A DNA stretch of 61,296 nucleotides. It comes from an uncultured SAR86 cluster bacterium. GTDB taxonomy: Bacteria > Pseudomonadota > Gammaproteobacteria > Magnimaribacterales > D2472. Below are positions 2,735-58,892 of this stretch, in pieces (the stretch's first letter is position 1; each line of letters begins with the position of its first letter). The position numbers were made by a program, and so were the translations under genes. A model generated the notes under the pieces. It did no database searches and was not told the origin of the DNA. It saw only the letters and a list, made by a program, of their open reading frames with translations. The stretch lies in NCBI GenBank assembly GCA_902516285.1, contig CABXXT010000008.1:1-61296 (forward strand). The letters are read 5' to 3'.

Positions 2735-2810
2735 TGGTGGGTCGCACAGGATTCGAACCTGTGACCAATTGGTTAAAAGCCAACTGCTCTACCAGCTGAG
2801 CTAGCGACCC
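2735..2810 (-). tRNA. tRNA-Lys (anticodon UUU)
   Basis: A 76-nt cloverleaf reads on the minus strand. The 7-bp acceptor stem GGGTCGC/GCGACCC is perfect. The D-arm is GCTC..GAGC, the anticodon stem GTTGG/CCAAT encloses the loop CTTTTAA with anticodon TTT, and the T-arm is ACAGG-TTCGAAT-CCTGT. Discriminator A and CCA are encoded. It sits directly downstream of cpoB, as the lysT cluster follows tol-pal-cpoB in enterobacteria, which supports vertical inheritance. Confidence 0.98.
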
Positions 2811-10621: not shown

Positions 10622-11899
10622 ATGTTGTTTTCAAATCTACTAATACCAACACTTAAGGATGCTCCTCAAGAAGCCGAAATAATTAGTCATAAATTAATGC
10701 TTCGTGCTGGCATGATTAGAAAAGCTGCTTCAGGTATATATACTTGGTTGCCATTGGGACTAAAAGTCTTAAAAAAAATTGAAAATATTATTAGAGAAGA
10801 AATGGATGAATCTGGTGCTCAAGAGGTTTTCATGCCTATGGTTCAACCAAAAGAATTATGGGATGAAACTAAAAGATGGGACAAAATGGGTCCTGAATTA
10901 CTGAGAATTAAGGATAGGCATGAAAGAGACTTTTGTTTAGGTCCAACACATGAAGAAGTTATTACGGATATTATTAGAAATAATGTAAAAAGCTATAAAC
11001 AACTCCCTTTAAATATTTATCAAATACAAACTAAATTTAGGGATGAGGTGAGACCAAGATATGGAATCATGAGAGGAAGAGAATTTCTGATGAAAGACTC
11101 TTATAGTTTTAATATTGATGAGTCATCGCTTCAAGAAACATATATTTTAATGCGAGAAACATATAAGAAAATTTTTAACAGAATTGGACTTGATTTTAAG
11201 ATTTCAAAAGCAGACTCAGGTGCAATTGGTGGAGATAGCTCAGAAGAGTTCCATGTATTGGCTGAGAATGGAGAAGATACAATTGCTATAAGTGATGGTT
11301 CTGAATTTGCAATTAATACAGAGCTTTTGCTTTCCGAGGGACAAGATATAGACTCACTAGAAGGAAAACCATCACCAGATGGTAAAGGTGTAATTCAGAT
11401 AAAAAAAGGTATTGAAGTTGGTCATATATTCAAGCTGGGCAAATTATATGCTGAGTCAATGAAAGCAAACGTTTTGAATGCTGATGGCAAAGCCTCAACA
11501 TTACAAATGGGCTGTTATGGTATCGGTGTCTCAAGATTAGTTGCTGCCGCTATAGAGCAAAACTATGATGAAAAAGGAATAATTTGGCCACATAATATAT
11601 CTCCTTTTGATATAAATATTATTTCTATTGGTCATAACAAAGAACAGGAAATAACTGAAGCAGCAATTAATTTGTATGATCAGCTCACAAAAATGAATTA
11701 CTCAGTTCTTCTTGATGACAGAAATGTTGGTTATGGTTCAAAAATCAAGGATTCTGAACTTATAGGTATTCCTTTAAATATAATTATTGGAAAAAATTAT
11801 ATTGAAAATAAAGAGATAGAGCTAATCGCAAGAAATGGGGATAAATCAATGAATCCAGTTGATGATATTAAAACCATCTTAAACTTTTTTAAAAATTAA
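10622..11899 (+). CDS. proS: Proline-tRNA ligase lacking the INS editing domain
   Basis: ProRS charges tRNA-Pro. The 425-residue protein carries class II motif 2 in FRDEVRPRYGIMRGREFLMKD and motif 3 in CYGIGVSRLVAAAIEQ, plus the C-terminal anticodon-binding domain (about 332-425). The usual gammaproteobacterial enzyme is about 570 residues, with a roughly 180-residue INS domain between motifs 2 and 3 that hydrolyses Ala-tRNA-Pro. Here that region shrinks to about 35 residues (about 222-258). The compact form is common in Alphaproteobacteria. The frame is intact, so this is a domain loss or a transferred gene, not a truncation. It converges on the alpha-E gene (4-bp overlap). Confidence 0.95.
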   Translation: MLFSNLLIPTLKDAPQEAEIISHKLMLRAGMIRKAASGIYTWLPLGLKVLKKIENIIREEMDESGAQEVFMPMVQPKELWDETKRWDKMGPELLRIKDRHERDFCLGPTHEEVITDIIRNNVKSYKQLPLNIYQIQTKFRDEVRPRYGIMRGREFLMKDSYSFNIDESSLQETYILMRETYKKIFNRIGLDFKISKADSGAIGGDSSEEFHVLAENGEDTIAISDGSEFAINTELLLSEGQDIDSLEGKPSPDGKGVIQIKKGIEVGHIFKLGKLYAESMKANVLNADGKASTLQMGCYGIGVSRLVAAAIEQNYDEKGIIWPHNISPFDINIISIGHNKEQEITEAAINLYDQLTKMNYSVLLDDRNVGYGSKIKDSELIGIPLNIIIGKNYIENKEIELIARNGDKSMNPVDDIKTILNFFKN

Positions 11900-12786
11900 T
11901 ACGAAAAGAACCTCTCATTAATTTCTTTATCTAACTTGATTAAACCAAACTGAAAATTATCTAAATGTTTTAATATTTTTTTGTCATATTTATATACATT
12001 ATTTTTCTCAAGGTTTTTTAATAAAGATTTTGTGATTTTTTTAATATTTGTAGACTTCGGTAAAAATTTCTGAACTTCAATAAGCTTATCAACACAATAT
12101 TTTAAAGATCTTGGAAACAACTTTTCCATTATCATAAAACCAAGCACTACTTCTTGATTTAGATTCTCTTTATTTATAGTTTTAAAAGATTCATATCCGT
12201 TGATAGACCTAAGAACACTACTCCATTGTAAATTTTGATAATATTTATTCACATACGTTTCTTTTCTAAGAATTTGATCTTCAATAATTCTGGAAAGCAT
12301 GTCCGCCCTTTCAATAAATCTTCCCAACTTTATAAAATTAAAGACATCATTTCTTTGCATTCCATCAGAAATAATTGCAAAAAATCTCTGTGAATTTCTA
12401 ATTATTTGATACAAATCTTCACTATTTCTCTTTACTGCACCATTATTAAAATCAGAGTAGAGATTGTTGAATTGTTCCCAAGCTGATTTAGGAAGCATTG
12501 TTAAAAGATATCTTGAATTCATTTTTGCCATTTCAATTGAATATTTAATTGAAGATGGATTTTTTTCGTCTTCTATAAGATAGAAAAAAACATTTTCCTT
12601 TGAGTTACTTTTTTTGAAGTCATCAAAATGACCTGTAATCTTAATTAGATGTTTTAAATCGTTTGATTCATCATGGGGTATATCAAGAAGGAGGTCAGAA
12701 TTTACATTTATCAGTCTTGAGGTATTTTCAATACGTTCAATATATCTAGAAAGCCAATATGTTTTTTCTGCGATGCTTGATAACAT
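11896..12786 (-). CDS. Alpha-E domain protein (COG2307) of the ATP-grasp/Anbu module
   Basis: A 296-residue all-helical protein starts MLSSIAEKTYWLSRYIERIENTSR, the signature opening of alpha-E (DUF403) proteins. It also has the FIKLGRFIERADMLSRIIED repeat of that motif near the middle. These proteins accompany circularly permuted ATP-grasp ligases and are proposed, from comparative genomics, to take part in peptide synthesis or modification; no reaction has been established that I can cite. The gene follows the ATP-grasp gene by 1 bp on the same strand and so falls under the same leader. Family certain, function open. Confidence 0.88.
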   Translation of the reverse strand: MLSSIAEKTYWLSRYIERIENTSRLINVNSDLLLDIPHDESNDLKHLIKITGHFDDFKKSNSKENVFFYLIEDEKNPSSIKYSIEMAKMNSRYLLTMLPKSAWEQFNNLYSDFNNGAVKRNSEDLYQIIRNSQRFFAIISDGMQRNDVFNFIKLGRFIERADMLSRIIEDQILRKETYVNKYYQNLQWSSVLRSINGYESFKTINKENLNQEVVLGFMIMEKLFPRSLKYCVDKLIEVQKFLPKSTNIKKITKSLLKNLEKNNVYKYDKKILKHLDNFQFGLIKLDKEINERFFSY

Positions 12787-12787
12787 T

Positions 12788-14218
12788 TTAATTAACTATC
12801 CATGTATCTTTACTTCCACCACCTTGAGATGAATTTACTATAGTTGATCCTTTTTTAAGAGCAACTCGTGTTAGTCCTCCATTAGTCACAAAAGTTTTAT
12901 TGCCTGATAAAATAAAAGGACGCAGATCAATATGCCTTGGTTGAATACTTGTTTTTATAAGAGTTGGTGTTGTAGAGAGTTTTATAAGAGGTTGTGCAAC
13001 AAAGTTCCTTGGGTTGGATTGTATTTTTAATTTGTATTGACTTAATTCTTTTTTTGTAGCACTAGGCCCTATTAAAATTCCATATCCACCTGATTCATTT
13101 ACAGGCTTTAAAACTAATTTACTGATATTTTCTAAAACATATTGCTTATCTTTTTCAAAGGCACATAAATATGTTTTTACCTGTTTGAGTTTTGATTTCT
13201 CTCCAAGGAAAAATTCAATCATTTTTGGAACAAAGGCATATACAGCTTTATCATCTGCTACTCCAGAGCCAGGAGCATTAACTATAGCAATCTTTTTTTC
13301 TTTCCAAGATTTAATTATACCCGGAACTCCTAAAACAGAATCCTTTTCCCATACCTCAGGATCTAAAAAGTTGTCGTTAACTCTTCTGTAAATCACATCT
13401 ACTTTTTTTTGACCATTTATGGTTTTTAAACATACATAATTATCTTTTGATAAAAATAAATCAGATGATTCAACAAGATCAACCCCCATTTGTTGAGCTA
13501 AATAAGCATGTTCAAAGTAAGCTGAATTAAAAACCCCAGGGCTAAGGATTACTATAGTCTTATTTTTTTCCTTGCTATAACTTGCATTTGATAAACATGT
13601 ATAAAGTTGAGAAGTATAGTCATCTACTGGTGAAACTTGATATTTGTTAAAAAGATCTGTTACCACCTTTTTCATTACATTTCTATTTTCAAGCATATAA
13701 GCAACACCAGATGGTACTCTTAAATTATCTTCTAATACAAAAAAATTGCCTCGGTGATCCCTAATTAAGTCAGTACCAGAAATATTTGCCCATATTTTAT
13801 TTTTTGGAATTATTCCAGAACATTCTTTTAAATAATTTGGTGATTCTAAGATTAATGATTTTAAAACAGGGTTTTTATTAAGGAACTCTTGCTTATGATA
13901 GACATCATGAATAAATAAATTTACTGCTTTTATTCTTTGTATTAGGCCCTCTTTAACTTCTATCCATTCTTTTTCCTTTATTATTCTGGGCATTAAATCA
14001 AGCGGCCAGTCTCTATCAATAAGCTTATTATTATCATAAACTCTGAAAGTAACTCCCATAGACCTAATAATTGAATCGCGAGTTTTTATTAAAAATCTTT
14101 TTTTCGTTGGTGTTAGTTTTGAAAAGTAATTAAAAGCATTGCCAAAACCTCGCCGAGGTAATTGCTTATTGTTTAAATATTCGTCAAATAATTTATTTTC
14201 TTTAGTTTTATTATTCAT
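12788..14218 (-). CDS. Circularly permuted ATP-grasp type 2 ligase-like protein (COG2308)
   Basis: A 476-residue protein of the circularly permuted ATP-grasp family (DUF404/DUF407). Typical elements are SMGVTFRVYDN, the segment HDVYHKQEFL, GTDLIRDHRGNFFVLEDNLRVPSG (metal/nucleotide-binding acidic residues), LKPVNESGGYGILIGP and DLRPFILSG near the end. Such proteins are predicted to form amide bonds by ATP-dependent carboxylate activation, acting with alpha-E proteins, a transglutaminase-like protein and Anbu. Here the transglutaminase is absent. The ATG at 14218 lies about 45 nt downstream of a predicted glutamine riboswitch on the same strand. Substrate unknown. Confidence 0.9.
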   Translation of the reverse strand: MNNKTKENKLFDEYLNNKQLPRRGFGNAFNYFSKLTPTKKRFLIKTRDSIIRSMGVTFRVYDNNKLIDRDWPLDLMPRIIKEKEWIEVKEGLIQRIKAVNLFIHDVYHKQEFLNKNPVLKSLILESPNYLKECSGIIPKNKIWANISGTDLIRDHRGNFFVLEDNLRVPSGVAYMLENRNVMKKVVTDLFNKYQVSPVDDYTSQLYTCLSNASYSKEKNKTIVILSPGVFNSAYFEHAYLAQQMGVDLVESSDLFLSKDNYVCLKTINGQKKVDVIYRRVNDNFLDPEVWEKDSVLGVPGIIKSWKEKKIAIVNAPGSGVADDKAVYAFVPKMIEFFLGEKSKLKQVKTYLCAFEKDKQYVLENISKLVLKPVNESGGYGILIGPSATKKELSQYKLKIQSNPRNFVAQPLIKLSTTPTLIKTSIQPRHIDLRPFILSGNKTFVTNGGLTRVALKKGSTIVNSSQGGGSKDTWIVN

Positions 14219-14262
14219 TTTAAATTTATTTACTTAATAGAAAATGAATAAGATAAGATAAA

Positions 14263-14320
14263 GAATCGCGTTCCTTCGGCTCTCACCTACTTCCGTCTTC
14301 TATTAAAAGATGAACGATTT
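14263..14320 (-). promoter_or_regulatory. Glutamine riboswitch (glnA RNA type) upstream of the ATP-grasp/alpha-E operon
   Basis: On the minus strand this GC-richer island in an AT-rich gap contains the two strongly conserved blocks of glnA-type RNAs: GACGGAAGTAGG (14297-14286) and CCGAAGGAACGCG (14279-14267), preceded by ATCGTTCA (14317-14310 region). P1 can form from AATCG (14319-14315) and CGATT (14268-14264). A P2 hairpin forms within TCTTTTAATAGAAGA, and a short P3 sits around AGG/CCG. Spacing and order match the glutamine-binding aptamer known from cyanobacteria and marine metagenomes. The leader continues 44 nt to the ATG at 14218 with no obvious terminator, so translational control is the likelier mode. 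The sequence match is direct; ligand identity is inferred from the family. Confidence 0.85.
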
Positions 14321-14418
14321 TTATACTTTACCAAAGACAGTTAGGAAACATAATGATTATTATGTATTTTTTTGTTATATAAATATAGAATAGTTATTTC
14401 ATTAAAGTAAGTAAAAAT

Positions 14419-15141
14419 ATGACATATTGTGTGGGAATGAAAATGGATGATGGTATTGTAATGGTATCAGATTCAAGAACTAATGCAGGATTAGATAATG
14501 TTTCTACCTATAAAAAAATGTTCTCATATTCAGTTGGTGATAGATGTATAGTTATTGTTACCTCAGGAAACTTATCAACGTCTCAACATGTATATAAAAC
14601 TTTACAAAATGACCTGAATTCAAACAATCCTACAAATAGTTTAAATATATGTAAAAATTTTGATGATGTCGCTGATTATGTTGGAAAAATATCATGGAAT
14701 CATTCGAAAACTGATGGCATATCATTTAATACTCATTTGGGTTCTAATTTTATAATCGGTGGTCAAATTCAAGGACAAGATCCTGATTTGATGATGGTAT
14801 ATCCTGTTGGCAATTATATTAGAGCATCAGAAATAAAGCCTTTTTTTCAACTGGGTGAAACTAAATACGGCAAGCCCATTCTAGATAGATTGATTAGAAA
14901 AGATACTTCCTTAGGTGATGCAGCAAGATGTGCTCTTGTTTCATTTGATTCTACTATGAAAAGTGATTTAACTGTGGGTCCACCAATAGATTTAATTGTC
15001 TACAAAAAAGACACCATTCAAATTTCTCAAGAAGAGCATCTTCAGTTCAAGACACCTTTTTTTTCAGATCTTTCCAGTAAATGGTCTGAGGGATTAAGAA
15101 ATTTATTCAAAGAATTGCCTAAGTTTGATTGGGAAAAATAA
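14419..15141 (+). CDS. Anbu, proteasome-related Ntn-hydrolase peptidase
   Basis: A 240-residue protein of the Anbu (ancestral beta subunit) family, an Ntn hydrolase related to HslV and proteasome beta subunits that forms open-ring assemblies. After Met removal the N-terminal nucleophile would be Thr2 (MTYCVG). Other proteasome-fold residues are Asp18 and Arg20 in VSDSRTNAG and Lys32/Lys33 in YKKM. The GPPIDL motif near residue 194 is also family-typical. It is divergent from the ATP-grasp operon across a 200-bp gap, so the riboswitch on the other strand does not precede it. Peptidase activity and substrates are inferred. Confidence 0.88.
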   Translation: MTYCVGMKMDDGIVMVSDSRTNAGLDNVSTYKKMFSYSVGDRCIVIVTSGNLSTSQHVYKTLQNDLNSNNPTNSLNICKNFDDVADYVGKISWNHSKTDGISFNTHLGSNFIIGGQIQGQDPDLMMVYPVGNYIRASEIKPFFQLGETKYGKPILDRLIRKDTSLGDAARCALVSFDSTMKSDLTVGPPIDLIVYKKDTIQISQEEHLQFKTPFFSDLSSKWSEGLRNLFKELPKFDWEK

Positions 15142-44780: not shown

Positions 44781-44811
44781 TAAATATCAACCTTATTTAT
44801 AACAAAAAAGT

Positions 44812-45138
44812 GAGTTGGTTTGTAAGCCGGATTCTGTAAAAGATGATCATCTATCTTGATATTGTGTTGCCACAATACTCTAGCAACCTACCCAAATCCA
44901 AAGCGAGCAACTTTATAGGATTTCTATTTGGTTTTGCTTCAAGCTGGGGTTTGCAATGCCTTAAATGTTACCATTTAAGCGGTAAGCTCTTACCTCACCA
45001 TTTCACCCTTACCAAAAAATTGGCGGTATATTTTCTGTTGCACTTTCCGTAAGCTCACGCTTCCCAGGCGTTACCTGGCGCTTTGCTCTTTGAAGTCCGG
45101 ACTTTCCTCTAAAAAATTAGCGATCATCCAACCAACTC
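44812..45138 (-). ncRNA. rnpB: RNase P RNA (rnpB), bacterial type A
   Basis: On the minus strand the segment has the conserved P4-forming AGAGGAAAGTCCGGACTTC near the 5' end. Further elements are CGCCAGGTAACGCCTGGG (P7-P10 region), GGGTGAAATGGTGAGGTAAGAGC, GGCATTGCAAACCCC, AACCAAATAGAAATCCTATA, GGTAGGTTGCT, and the 3' AGAATCCGGCTTAC. Complementary ends GAGTTGGTT/AACCAACTC form P1. About 327 nt. RNase P processes tRNA 5' ends. It lies between rsmI and mraZ, as in Pseudomonas, and accounts for the largest protein-free stretch in the window. Confidence 0.97.
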
Positions 45139-45161
45139 ATCGCTATTATAATAAGGTTTTT

Positions 45162-57626: not shown

Positions 57627-58892
57627 ATGGCTATTAATTTATCAAAAAATTTACTACAAAAACAATCATTAAAGCTTACACCATCTCTAAAAAAGTCCAT
57701 TGATCTTCTTCAGCTATCACGGTTTGAATTAATTAAAAAGATTGAAAAAGAAATTGATCAAAATCCTTTTTTAGAAAAAGAGGATACATTTGAAGTTGAT
57801 ATCAAAACCTTTGGTACTGATTTTAATTTTGAGATTGAATCTAAGGTTGGTCTGAGAGAAACACTTTTAAAACAAATTGATGAACTTCATCTTGATGATC
57901 AAGACATTAAAATTGCCCAAGTGATTATTGATTGTATGGACGAATCAGGTCAGCTAATTGACGATATAGAGGATGTTTGTTCAATTATGAATTTTGTTTT
58001 TAATCAAAACAAAGTCGAAATGGTTCTTAAAAATATCATACAGAGATTGTCACCTATAGGTGTTGGTTACAGAGATCATAAGGAGTGCATACAAATACAA
58101 ATAAATCATAAGAACATTTCAAGAAAAATTAAAAATATATGTAATCAAATTCTGTTTAATGAAAAGCTTGATGAGATTGATATTATCAGAGAAGAATTAA
58201 TTAATAGTGGTATTACAAAAGAAGAATACGAAGAAGCGTTAATCGAGATAAAAAAGTGTGATCTTAGTCCTGGTTTAAATTTTAAAGATACAAAGTTTAT
58301 TTATCCTGATCTAAAGATCTTTAAAAAAGATTCGAACTATCAAGTCAACTTTATTAAAGATACTTTCCCTGTTATTAGTCTTGATGATGAGTTAGTTTAC
58401 AAAGTTAAAAAGGAAATGAAATCTAATAACAAACAAATTCTACAAAAAATTAATGATGCTAAATGGTTGATGTCTTCAGTAAAAAAAAGAAACGAGACCG
58501 TTCAAAAAGTTGGTGAGTACATATGCTCAATACAAATAGCATTTTTTGAAAACAATCCTCTTAAAATTAAAACTTTAAGTAACAAAGATATTGCTGAAAA
58601 AATTGGTGTTCACCCCTCTACTGTTTCCCGAATATTACGTCATAAATATATTGAAACACCAAAAGGTATAATGTCATTGAAAGCTTTACTTGTTTCATCA
58701 GTATCTAGAACTCGAAATATATCTGCTGTTCAGTTAATGAAATTAATAGGAGATATTGTTAATGACGAAAAAAAACCTAAAAGCGATAAAAAAATAGCAA
58801 TAGAGTTGAATAAAAAAGGATTTAATCTTGCACGAAGGACTATTGCCAAATATAGGAAGAAAAACAATATTCCTTCATCAAGATACAGATAA
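57627..58892 (+). CDS. rpoN: RNA polymerase sigma-54 factor
   Basis: RpoN directs transcription from -24/-12 promoters with activator ATPases. The start is ATG 57627 (MAINLSKNLL), 4 bp after the lptB stop; the open frame extends into lptB but family alignment begins here. The 422-residue protein has region I (LKLTPSLKKSIDLLQLSRFEL), an acidic-poor region II, the core-binding domain, the HTH in KDIAEKIGVHPSTVSRILRHKYIETPKG and the RpoN box ARRTIAKYRKKNNIPSS. Shorter than E. coli (477). The usual followers hpf and ptsN are missing. Confidence 0.93.
   Translation: MAINLSKNLLQKQSLKLTPSLKKSIDLLQLSRFELIKKIEKEIDQNPFLEKEDTFEVDIKTFGTDFNFEIESKVGLRETLLKQIDELHLDDQDIKIAQVIIDCMDESGQLIDDIEDVCSIMNFVFNQNKVEMVLKNIIQRLSPIGVGYRDHKECIQIQINHKNISRKIKNICNQILFNEKLDEIDIIREELINSGITKEEYEEALIEIKKCDLSPGLNFKDTKFIYPDLKIFKKDSNYQVNFIKDTFPVISLDDELVYKVKKEMKSNNKQILQKINDAKWLMSSVKKRNETVQKVGEYICSIQIAFFENNPLKIKTLSNKDIAEKIGVHPSTVSRILRHKYIETPKGIMSLKALLVSSVSRTRNISAVQLMKLIGDIVNDEKKPKSDKKIAIELNKKGFNLARRTIAKYRKKNNIPSSRYR

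Follow-up and report, generated by a model that had tools for sequence, protein, structure and literature searches.

An intact type-1 glutamine riboswitch precedes the ATP-grasp/Alpha-E operon of a SAR86 bacterium and probably took the place of NtrC/sigma-54 control

Introduction

Riboswitches of the glnA type have been described from cyanobacteria and marine samples, where they precede genes for PII, glutamine synthetase, glutamate synthase, ammonium transporters, and PMT1479 (Weinberg et al. 2010, PMC2864571, in the part consulted). In the same part, the authors infer that glnA RNAs lower expression upon nitrogen depletion. The sections of a review that we consulted (PMC6316151) present glutamine riboswitches as restricted to cyanobacteria and activating, with the associations to glutamine synthetase, PII, and ammonium transporters found only in environmental sequences. 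According to these sections, the cyanobacterial switch activates gifB, which encodes an inhibitor of glutamine synthetase, and DUF4278 corresponds to the N-terminal region of IF17, the glutamine synthetase inhibitor of cyanobacteria. A glutamine riboswitch has also been reported in phages of OM43 and SAR11, with none in the OM43 host (PMC9004378, in excerpt).

The Anbu operon consists of genes for Anbu, an ATP-grasp protein, Alpha-E, and a transglutaminase (Iyer et al. 2009, as cited in the consulted parts of PMC5666114 and PMC6376114). The same parts describe the Anbu system as having no known substrate and cite the induction of Anbu in nitrogen-limited Pseudomonas putida (Hervas 2008). Domains of this operon associate with urea-metabolism domains in marine metagenomes (PMC3597751, in the part consulted). 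Our literature search, which covered mostly titles and abstract openings, returned no report that connects a glutamine riboswitch with SAR86 or with the ATP-grasp/Alpha-E operon and no description of an exchange with NtrC/sigma-54.

Results

An intact glutamine aptamer in front of the ATP-grasp gene

The window, i.e., the whole stretch of DNA analyzed here, comprises 61,296 nucleotides of a SAR86 genome assembly (1.08 Mb, 81% complete). When the window was compared in full with 4227 Rfam families by cmscan, three matches reached the gathering score: RF01739 (Glutamine/glnA), a class A RNase P RNA (44807-45139, minus strand, 324 bits), and one tRNA (2738-2810, minus strand). The latter two are ordinary. 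The RF01739 match runs from 14318 to 14265 on the minus strand and spans model positions 1 to 53 of 53, with no nonstandard pair marked in the covariance model (CM) alignment. Its score of 62.9 bits lies above the curated gathering score of 35. RF01704 (Downstream-peptide, or type 2) was not reported in scans of all Rfam families, either at this site or at the long-looped copy described below. The features of the aptamer are as follows.

14265..14318, minus strand: complete type-1 glutamine riboswitch aptamer (RF01739; 62.9 bits, E 1.4e-11; mean pairwise aptamer identity 93% in six nonredundant intact leaders)
14312..14316, minus strand: 5' strand of P1, CGUUC, partner 14273-14269 (CM alignment; invariant in 20/20 aligned aptamers)
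14296..14310, minus strand: P2 hairpin (CM alignment; two outer pairs invariant in 20/20; inner pairs left out of the count)
14278..14287, minus strand: P3 hairpin (each of the three pairs has two-sided changes within the set of 20 aptamers; 98.3% of cells paired)
14269..14273, minus strand: 3' strand of P1, GAACG (CM alignment; invariant in 20/20)

The original prediction had placed both glnA-aptamer blocks on the minus strand at 14220-14320, with a P1 able to form around them. The CM check confirmed this at full length: the conserved blocks GACGGAAGUA and GAAGGAACGC lie within P1/P2/P3, and P1 pairs CGUUC with GAACG. All pairs of the window copy are preserved, as is every position that is invariant in the 20-sequence alignment. 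Sequence and structure place this intact riboswitch in an established class, the type-1 glutamine aptamer, and we hold with high confidence that it binds glutamine.

A spacer of 46 nt separates the aptamer from the ATG (14218) of the ATP-grasp gene, which would place the riboswitch in the 5' UTR of the gene under control. The neighboring genes are as follows.

12788..14218, minus strand: circularly permuted ATP-grasp gene, 476 aa (PF14403, CP_ATPgrasp_2, 493.9 bits; PF04174, 410.7 bits)
11896..12786, minus strand: Alpha-E gene, 296 aa, 1 nt 3' of the ATP-grasp gene (PF04168, 212.7 bits)
14419..15141, plus strand: divergent Anbu-type (proteasome-like) gene, 240 aa (PF00227, 43.8 bits)

We take the circularly permuted ATP-grasp gene to be of the COG2308 type. 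It probably forms one operon with the Alpha-E gene, while the divergent Anbu-type gene is outside riboswitch control. Pfam assigns this gene to the Proteasome family only; the name Anbu comes from the original prediction, and the match fits it. Thus, three genes of the Anbu operon set lie side by side in the window, and an Anbu homologue is divergent from the ATP-grasp gene in 51 of the 52 SAR86 genomes that have the latter, the 52nd being interrupted by a contig end. The transglutaminase core domain PF01841 was not found in the genome at its 81% completeness. Both the gammaproteobacterial host and the location upstream of a circularly permuted ATP-grasp/Alpha-E operon were as originally proposed.

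NtrC and sigma-54-like sites at the same operon in relatives

The ATP-grasp gene is present in 52/203 genomes of the order (two in pieces) and in 16/107 genomes of the family. Searching for the same aptamer upstream of these genes, as had been suggested, we located the riboswitch site in 12/52 SAR86 genomes. Nine copies are intact (G000, which is the window's genome, G053, G056, G057, G066, G067, G077, G079, and G098; 61.5-66.6 bits) and three are decayed. A riboswitch (61 bits) is also found at the ATP-grasp locus of the SP147 record, which is labeled Rhodospirillaceae, a label that is probably wrong. Upstream of the other 40/52 orthologues, RF01739 gave no match at E 1 (the upstream region of G107 is lost to a contig end), and no other RNA family reached its gathering score upstream of the orthologues lacking the riboswitch.

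In the protein tree, the 13 riboswitch loci group as a single clade (SH-aLRT 99), which adjoins sequences of genera g5 and g7. The tree was made by a quick method with no bootstrap and comprised the 37 full-length SAR86 rows of 53 loci plus six outgroup rows. The closest gene clade consists of 12 genomes with 80-100% protein identity to the window's protein, and the site is present in 12/12 of them, degenerate in 3. This outcome favors the original prediction, which absence of the blocks in close relatives would have contradicted. The ATP-grasp locus of G098 (L088, G098:C5; labeled genus g9) is almost identical to G056:C17 (L091) of genus g1, which reflects either gene transfer or contamination.

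Control by NtrC and sigma-54 operates at low nitrogen. We scanned the intergenic region of 52 loci (51 genomes and SP147) with a sigma-54-like pattern, TGGCACGN4TTGCW (12 scored positions, GG and GC required), and, in this SAR86 scan, with the NtrC pattern GCACN7GTGC (8 scored positions). In family f3, a perfect NtrC palindrome was found at -80 and a sigma-54-like site scoring 9-11 of 12 at -36, both in 11/11 loci. Because these loci are related, 11/11 represents conservation rather than 11 independent events. The perfect palindrome was absent from every non-f3 locus among the 52. Genus g5, on the sister branch, carries the sigma-54-like site TGGCATAATTATTGCA (10 of 12) in 3/3 loci, without the palindrome. 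Neither site was seen in clear form in G049 (g7) or in the orthologues of family f2, among which G112 came closest with an NtrC score of 7 of 8; the f2 orthologues thus have neither the switch nor a clear NtrC/sigma-54 pair, though many f2 genomes have ntrC. Among the 13 riboswitch loci, none reached 10 of 12 for sigma-54, and the NtrC score was never above 5 of 8. G053 is the sole riboswitch locus with a sigma-54 score of 9, and that site overlaps the aptamer. The only perfect NtrC palindrome in the window's own genome lies inside a long glutamate-synthase-like reading frame and therefore marks no promoter.

Class-wide, the ATP-grasp gene was found in 102 genomes, and we scanned upstream of the 30 best-scoring matches outside SAR86 (L184-L213). 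NtrC scores of 9-10 of 10 occurred at 6 of these best 30 of 102 loci and sigma-54 scores of at least 10 of 12 at 7, with 0 in reversed sequences in both cases. Three of the best 30 had both sites (L190, L191, and L209), and the majority lacked the pair. NtrC/sigma-54 control of the ATP-grasp operon therefore seems, from these motifs, neither confined to SAR86 nor general.

Taken together, we think it quite likely that this is a nitrogen-starvation operon in which NtrC/sigma-54 control was exchanged for a glutamine riboswitch, the direction of replacement being our reading of the sequences. The original prediction had tied the operon to nitrogen status. That tie is independently strengthened by the sites in relatives and by Anbu induction in nitrogen-limited P. 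putida (consulted parts of PMC5666114 and PMC6376114).

Promoter, expression platform, and sign of the switch

The leader between promoter and start codon contains the following candidate elements.

14325..14333, minus strand: candidate extended -10 element TGGTAAAGT (by eye, 11 leaders)
14260..14266, minus strand: linker AUUCUUU, which can pair with GAAGGAA (14277-14271) in competition with P1 (folding; suggestive only)
14211..14251, minus strand: 11-bp hairpin UUAUUCAUUUU/AAAAUGAAUAA around the AUG at 14218-14216, a candidate expression platform (folding compared to shuffles)

By eye, TGnTAnAGT upstream of the aptamer is retained in 10/11 leaders, G053 being the exception; a consensus promoter scanner reported nothing at 14325..14333. 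Judging from the sequence, the transcript may begin where the aptamer does, near 14318. A transcription terminator was considered as the expression platform and rejected for this leader, as no terminator-like site was found on the minus strand of 14100-14500 (one there lies on the plus strand).

When the linker alone was folded at 20 C, the window leader concealed its AUG more than any of 200 shuffles did. Concealment was within the best 5% of 200 shuffles in 5/8 intact leaders, i.e., 3/6 independent groups, and unremarkable in the remaining three intact leaders and the three decayed ones. The near-copies G057 and G098 were left out of this test. For most intact leaders, the fold predicted without ligand has GAAGGAA base-paired to the U-rich linker that follows, excluding P1. 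Without ligand, the aptamer fold is modeled as 2.7-9.4 kcal/mol less favorable than the free fold in all eight leaders. Forcing the bound aptamer lowered the predicted unpaired fraction of the start region from 0.63 to 0.31 and 0.30 in the window leader and G067, respectively; among the remaining six intact leaders, the decrease was 0.06 at most, or there was none. These models give no uniform mechanism across leaders, and we regard the result as weak.

The expected outcome is that the switch is OFF at high glutamine, which we consider probable; the sign is the element of which we are least sure. That it acts on translation has somewhat better than even odds in our judgment. Translational repression by glutamine is favored with modest confidence, mainly because the alternative control of this operon is NtrC.

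The main competitor is a true glutamine riboswitch of opposite sign, which would turn the operon ON at high glutamine as in cyanobacterial gifB, e.g., for storing or capping excess nitrogen in peptide. The literature gives this reading weight: in the sections consulted, both cyanobacterial types are described as activating (PMC6316151) and both motifs are inferred to lower expression on nitrogen depletion (PMC2864571), and the same aptamer family lies before SAR86 DUF4278 genes, the gene type that it activates in cyanobacteria. Against it, the operon of relatives lies behind NtrC/sigma-54-like sites, whose control works at low nitrogen, and P. putida induces Anbu when nitrogen is limiting (cited in the consulted part of PMC5666114). 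In addition, folding predicts that the start region closes in the bound state of the window leader and of its 97% relative. We therefore judge the ON sign unlikely, while giving it a real chance, and continue to prefer an OFF switch.

Glutamine riboswitches elsewhere in SAR86

One correction to the original interpretation concerns how widespread the aptamer is. RF01739 was matched in 86/203 genomes of the order at E 1e-4 (81 above the curated score) and in 50/107 genomes of the family at E 0.01 (49 above it). In a class-wide sample, 4/369 genomes had a match at E 1e-4, and three of these are SAR86. The glutamine aptamer is thus common in this group, and the window occurrence is not isolated. 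The fourth genome, G486 (L120, G486:C1), has the riboswitch at two sites, before gltD-like and gltB-like genes, each followed by a hairpin CACCAAACU/AGUUUGGUG. Presumably, some of the environmental sequences behind the published associations come from SAR86.

Four RF01739 matches in the window's own genome reach E 10. Two score 12-13 bits, which is chance level, and the only clear riboswitches are the window copy and one on contig 15 (L067:5280-5423, minus strand, G000:C15). The contig-15 copy has about 91 nt in its P3 loop and scored 32.1 bits in the genome scan and 48.4 bits with more flank. It was considered as a type-2 (Downstream-peptide) element and rejected, since with enough flank it is RF01739. 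It precedes a 54-aa DUF4278-like protein (24.6 bits, just below the 25.3 cutoff). Across SAR86, DUF4278 gave 23 matches, and 18 of the 20 loci scanned have RF01739 upstream, 17 of them long-looped and one an ordinary tandem.

We named further riboswitch targets by a Pfam scan of example loci. In genus g3, the targets are glutamine synthetase (Gln-synt), a Gcw_chp-like porin gene with an ammonium transporter, and a TonB receptor; the riboswitches of this genus are often tandem. The f4 loci read (G182, G190, G191, G193, G194, G195, and G199) have it before glutamine synthetase or the Gcw_chp-like/ammonium-transporter pair, and G191 also before a small reading frame. All three g12 loci read (G115, G119, and G121) have it before gltB. 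Tandem glutamine riboswitches also precede unnamed small reading frames of about 45-75 aa in several SAR86 genera (L117, L118, L105, L027, L030, and similar loci); two of these frames were scanned and gave no Pfam match.

Of the 203 genomes, 123 gave a match to the sigma-54 DNA-binding domain (PF04552, E 1e-5) and 142 one to ntrC (TIGR01818, E 1e-100). At these thresholds, rpoN and ntrC were both absent from g3 (0/10), f4 (0/21), and the f2 genus g12 (0/9), many of which are incomplete drafts. These are the three groups in which the riboswitch loci read include glutamine synthetase, ammonium transporter, or glutamate synthase genes. The f2 genera g11 and g13 have the sigma-54 domain as fragments only (38-46 bits) and g14 has none, despite the presence of ntrC in all three; this may mean that NtrC acts without sigma-54 there or that the drafts are incomplete. 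The window's own genome retains both rpoN (58437-58889 of the window) and ntrC. Losing sigma-54 or NtrC therefore did not force the swap in this genome, and we rejected it as an explanation for the window clade.

Riboswitches frequently sit on genes of the pathway of their own ligand, and ATP-grasp enzymes make amide bonds. On these general grounds, glutamine or a gamma-glutamyl compound could be the substrate or product of the ATP-grasp enzyme, with the switch as pathway-specific feedback, which the original prediction had raised. The SAR86 switch, however, also precedes transporters (the TonB receptor and the porin-like gene with its ammonium transporter), gltB, and small proteins, and it therefore reports general nitrogen status. 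The NtrC-type sites at the same operon in relatives likewise argue against feedback, as does a homologue from Yersinia bercovieri, whose phosphate release was stimulated by neither glutamine nor glutamate under the assay conditions (PMC6376114, in the part consulted). Because the switch is also found at unrelated genes for transport and assimilation, and because the operon has NtrC-type sites elsewhere, we rejected substrate feedback as the main explanation and consider it improbable; a general nitrogen signal explains the switch.

Conservation and decay of the aptamer

Three of the 12 SAR86 sites are degenerate: G080 (37.3 bits, still above the cutoff), G069 (26.4 bits), and G062, which has no match at E 1 and was recognized by eye and with a relaxed pattern. 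G062 and G069 group together on the tree, and G080 is separate. These losses could suggest a former glutamine riboswitch that is decaying in the window clade and is kept by descent, not function. Against this, the mean pairwise identity of six nonredundant intact leaders is 93% in the aptamer compared to 58% in the adjoining linker and 68% on the promoter side, and the window copy keeps all its pairs and invariant positions. We consider decay at the window locus very improbable and retain the view that the riboswitch is functional.

The covariation alignment comprised the window aptamer and 19 of the 38 remaining once 69 had been thinned. Among the helix cells counted, 99.5% were paired. P3 showed 21 cells with double changes compared to 6.9 in shuffles, while P1 and the outer P2 pairs were without variation. 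Chance resemblance or membership in another RNA class is already refuted by this conservation and covariation and by the E value of 1.4e-11 against all Rfam families.

Discussion

Our preferred explanation, which we hold to be probable as a whole, is a functional type-1 glutamine riboswitch that turns OFF the circularly permuted ATP-grasp/Alpha-E operon and has replaced NtrC/sigma-54. The extended -10 promoter bordering the aptamer would drive transcription. With plentiful glutamine, the aptamer would make P1 and bind glutamine, the start codon would be held in its hairpin, and expression of the operon would be low. With scarce glutamine, the 3' aptamer strand would instead pair with the linker, and the operon would be expressed. 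The switch would have replaced an NtrC site and a sigma-54 promoter in the ancestor of the window clade, and the ATP-grasp/Alpha-E operon would be part of the nitrogen-limitation response. The observations beneath this model are the aptamer match, its conservation, the gene order, the clade, and the NtrC/sigma-54-like motifs in relatives. Several points count against it: the activating cyanobacterial type and the lowered expression of glnA RNAs on nitrogen depletion (PMC6316151 and PMC2864571, in the parts consulted) oppose the OFF sign, 3/12 riboswitch loci are decayed, family f2 has neither control, and the modeled switching is not uniform. The original interpretation holds for aptamer type, host, operon, and the tie to nitrogen, and gains no support for glutamine or a gamma-glutamyl compound as substrate or product.

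More broadly, we lean toward a picture in which the SAR86 glutamine riboswitch took over nitrogen control gene by gene where NtrC/sigma-54 was kept, the window clade's operon being an example, and also in lineages that lost both, where it would control glutamine synthetase, ammonium uptake, and glutamate synthase. The circularly permuted ATP-grasp/Alpha-E/Anbu set would then be a nitrogen-starvation system, for scavenging or recycling, whichever sensor it has. In the parts of the literature consulted, this set is without a confirmed physiological role. With two unrelated nitrogen sensors at one operon, its physiology becomes accessible to testing, the prediction being expression when nitrogen is limiting.

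Compared to the described type-1 glutamine riboswitch (RF01739), the window element is alike in its complete aptamer, with all conserved blocks, P1-P2-P3, and a likely 5' UTR location, and in the tandems found elsewhere in SAR86. It differs in its host, a gammaproteobacterium, and in its target, since a circularly permuted ATP-grasp/Alpha-E operon is not among PII, glutamine synthetase, glutamate synthase, ammonium transporters, PMT1479, or DUF4278, the targets named in the consulted parts of PMC2864571 and PMC6316151. SAR86 is thus a host group for riboswitches that the review calls restricted to cyanobacteria (PMC6316151, in the sections consulted). With the cyanobacterial gifB/DUF4278 regulon, it shares the aptamer family, and the second copy in the same genome precedes a DUF4278-like protein; however, the cyanobacterial switch activates a glutamine synthetase inhibitor, whereas the window target is a ligase operon that is likely turned OFF.

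The Anbu operon is matched in that the proteasome-like, circularly permuted ATP-grasp, and Alpha-E genes occur together at the window too. Here, however, the proteasome-like gene is divergent and not cotranscribed, and PF01841 was not found in the 81%-complete genome. Finally, the gammaproteobacterial nitrogen-limitation operons under NtrC/sigma-54 offer the nearest regulatory parallel: f3 (NtrC and sigma-54-like sites) and g5 (sigma-54-like site) have such elements at the same operon and in the same intergenic region, and the signal would be the same. The window clade has an RNA sensor there, and NtrC/sigma-54 sites were not found at its loci. It would thus exemplify, among streamlined ocean bacteria, the substitution of an RNA sensor for a two-component/sigma-54 circuit.
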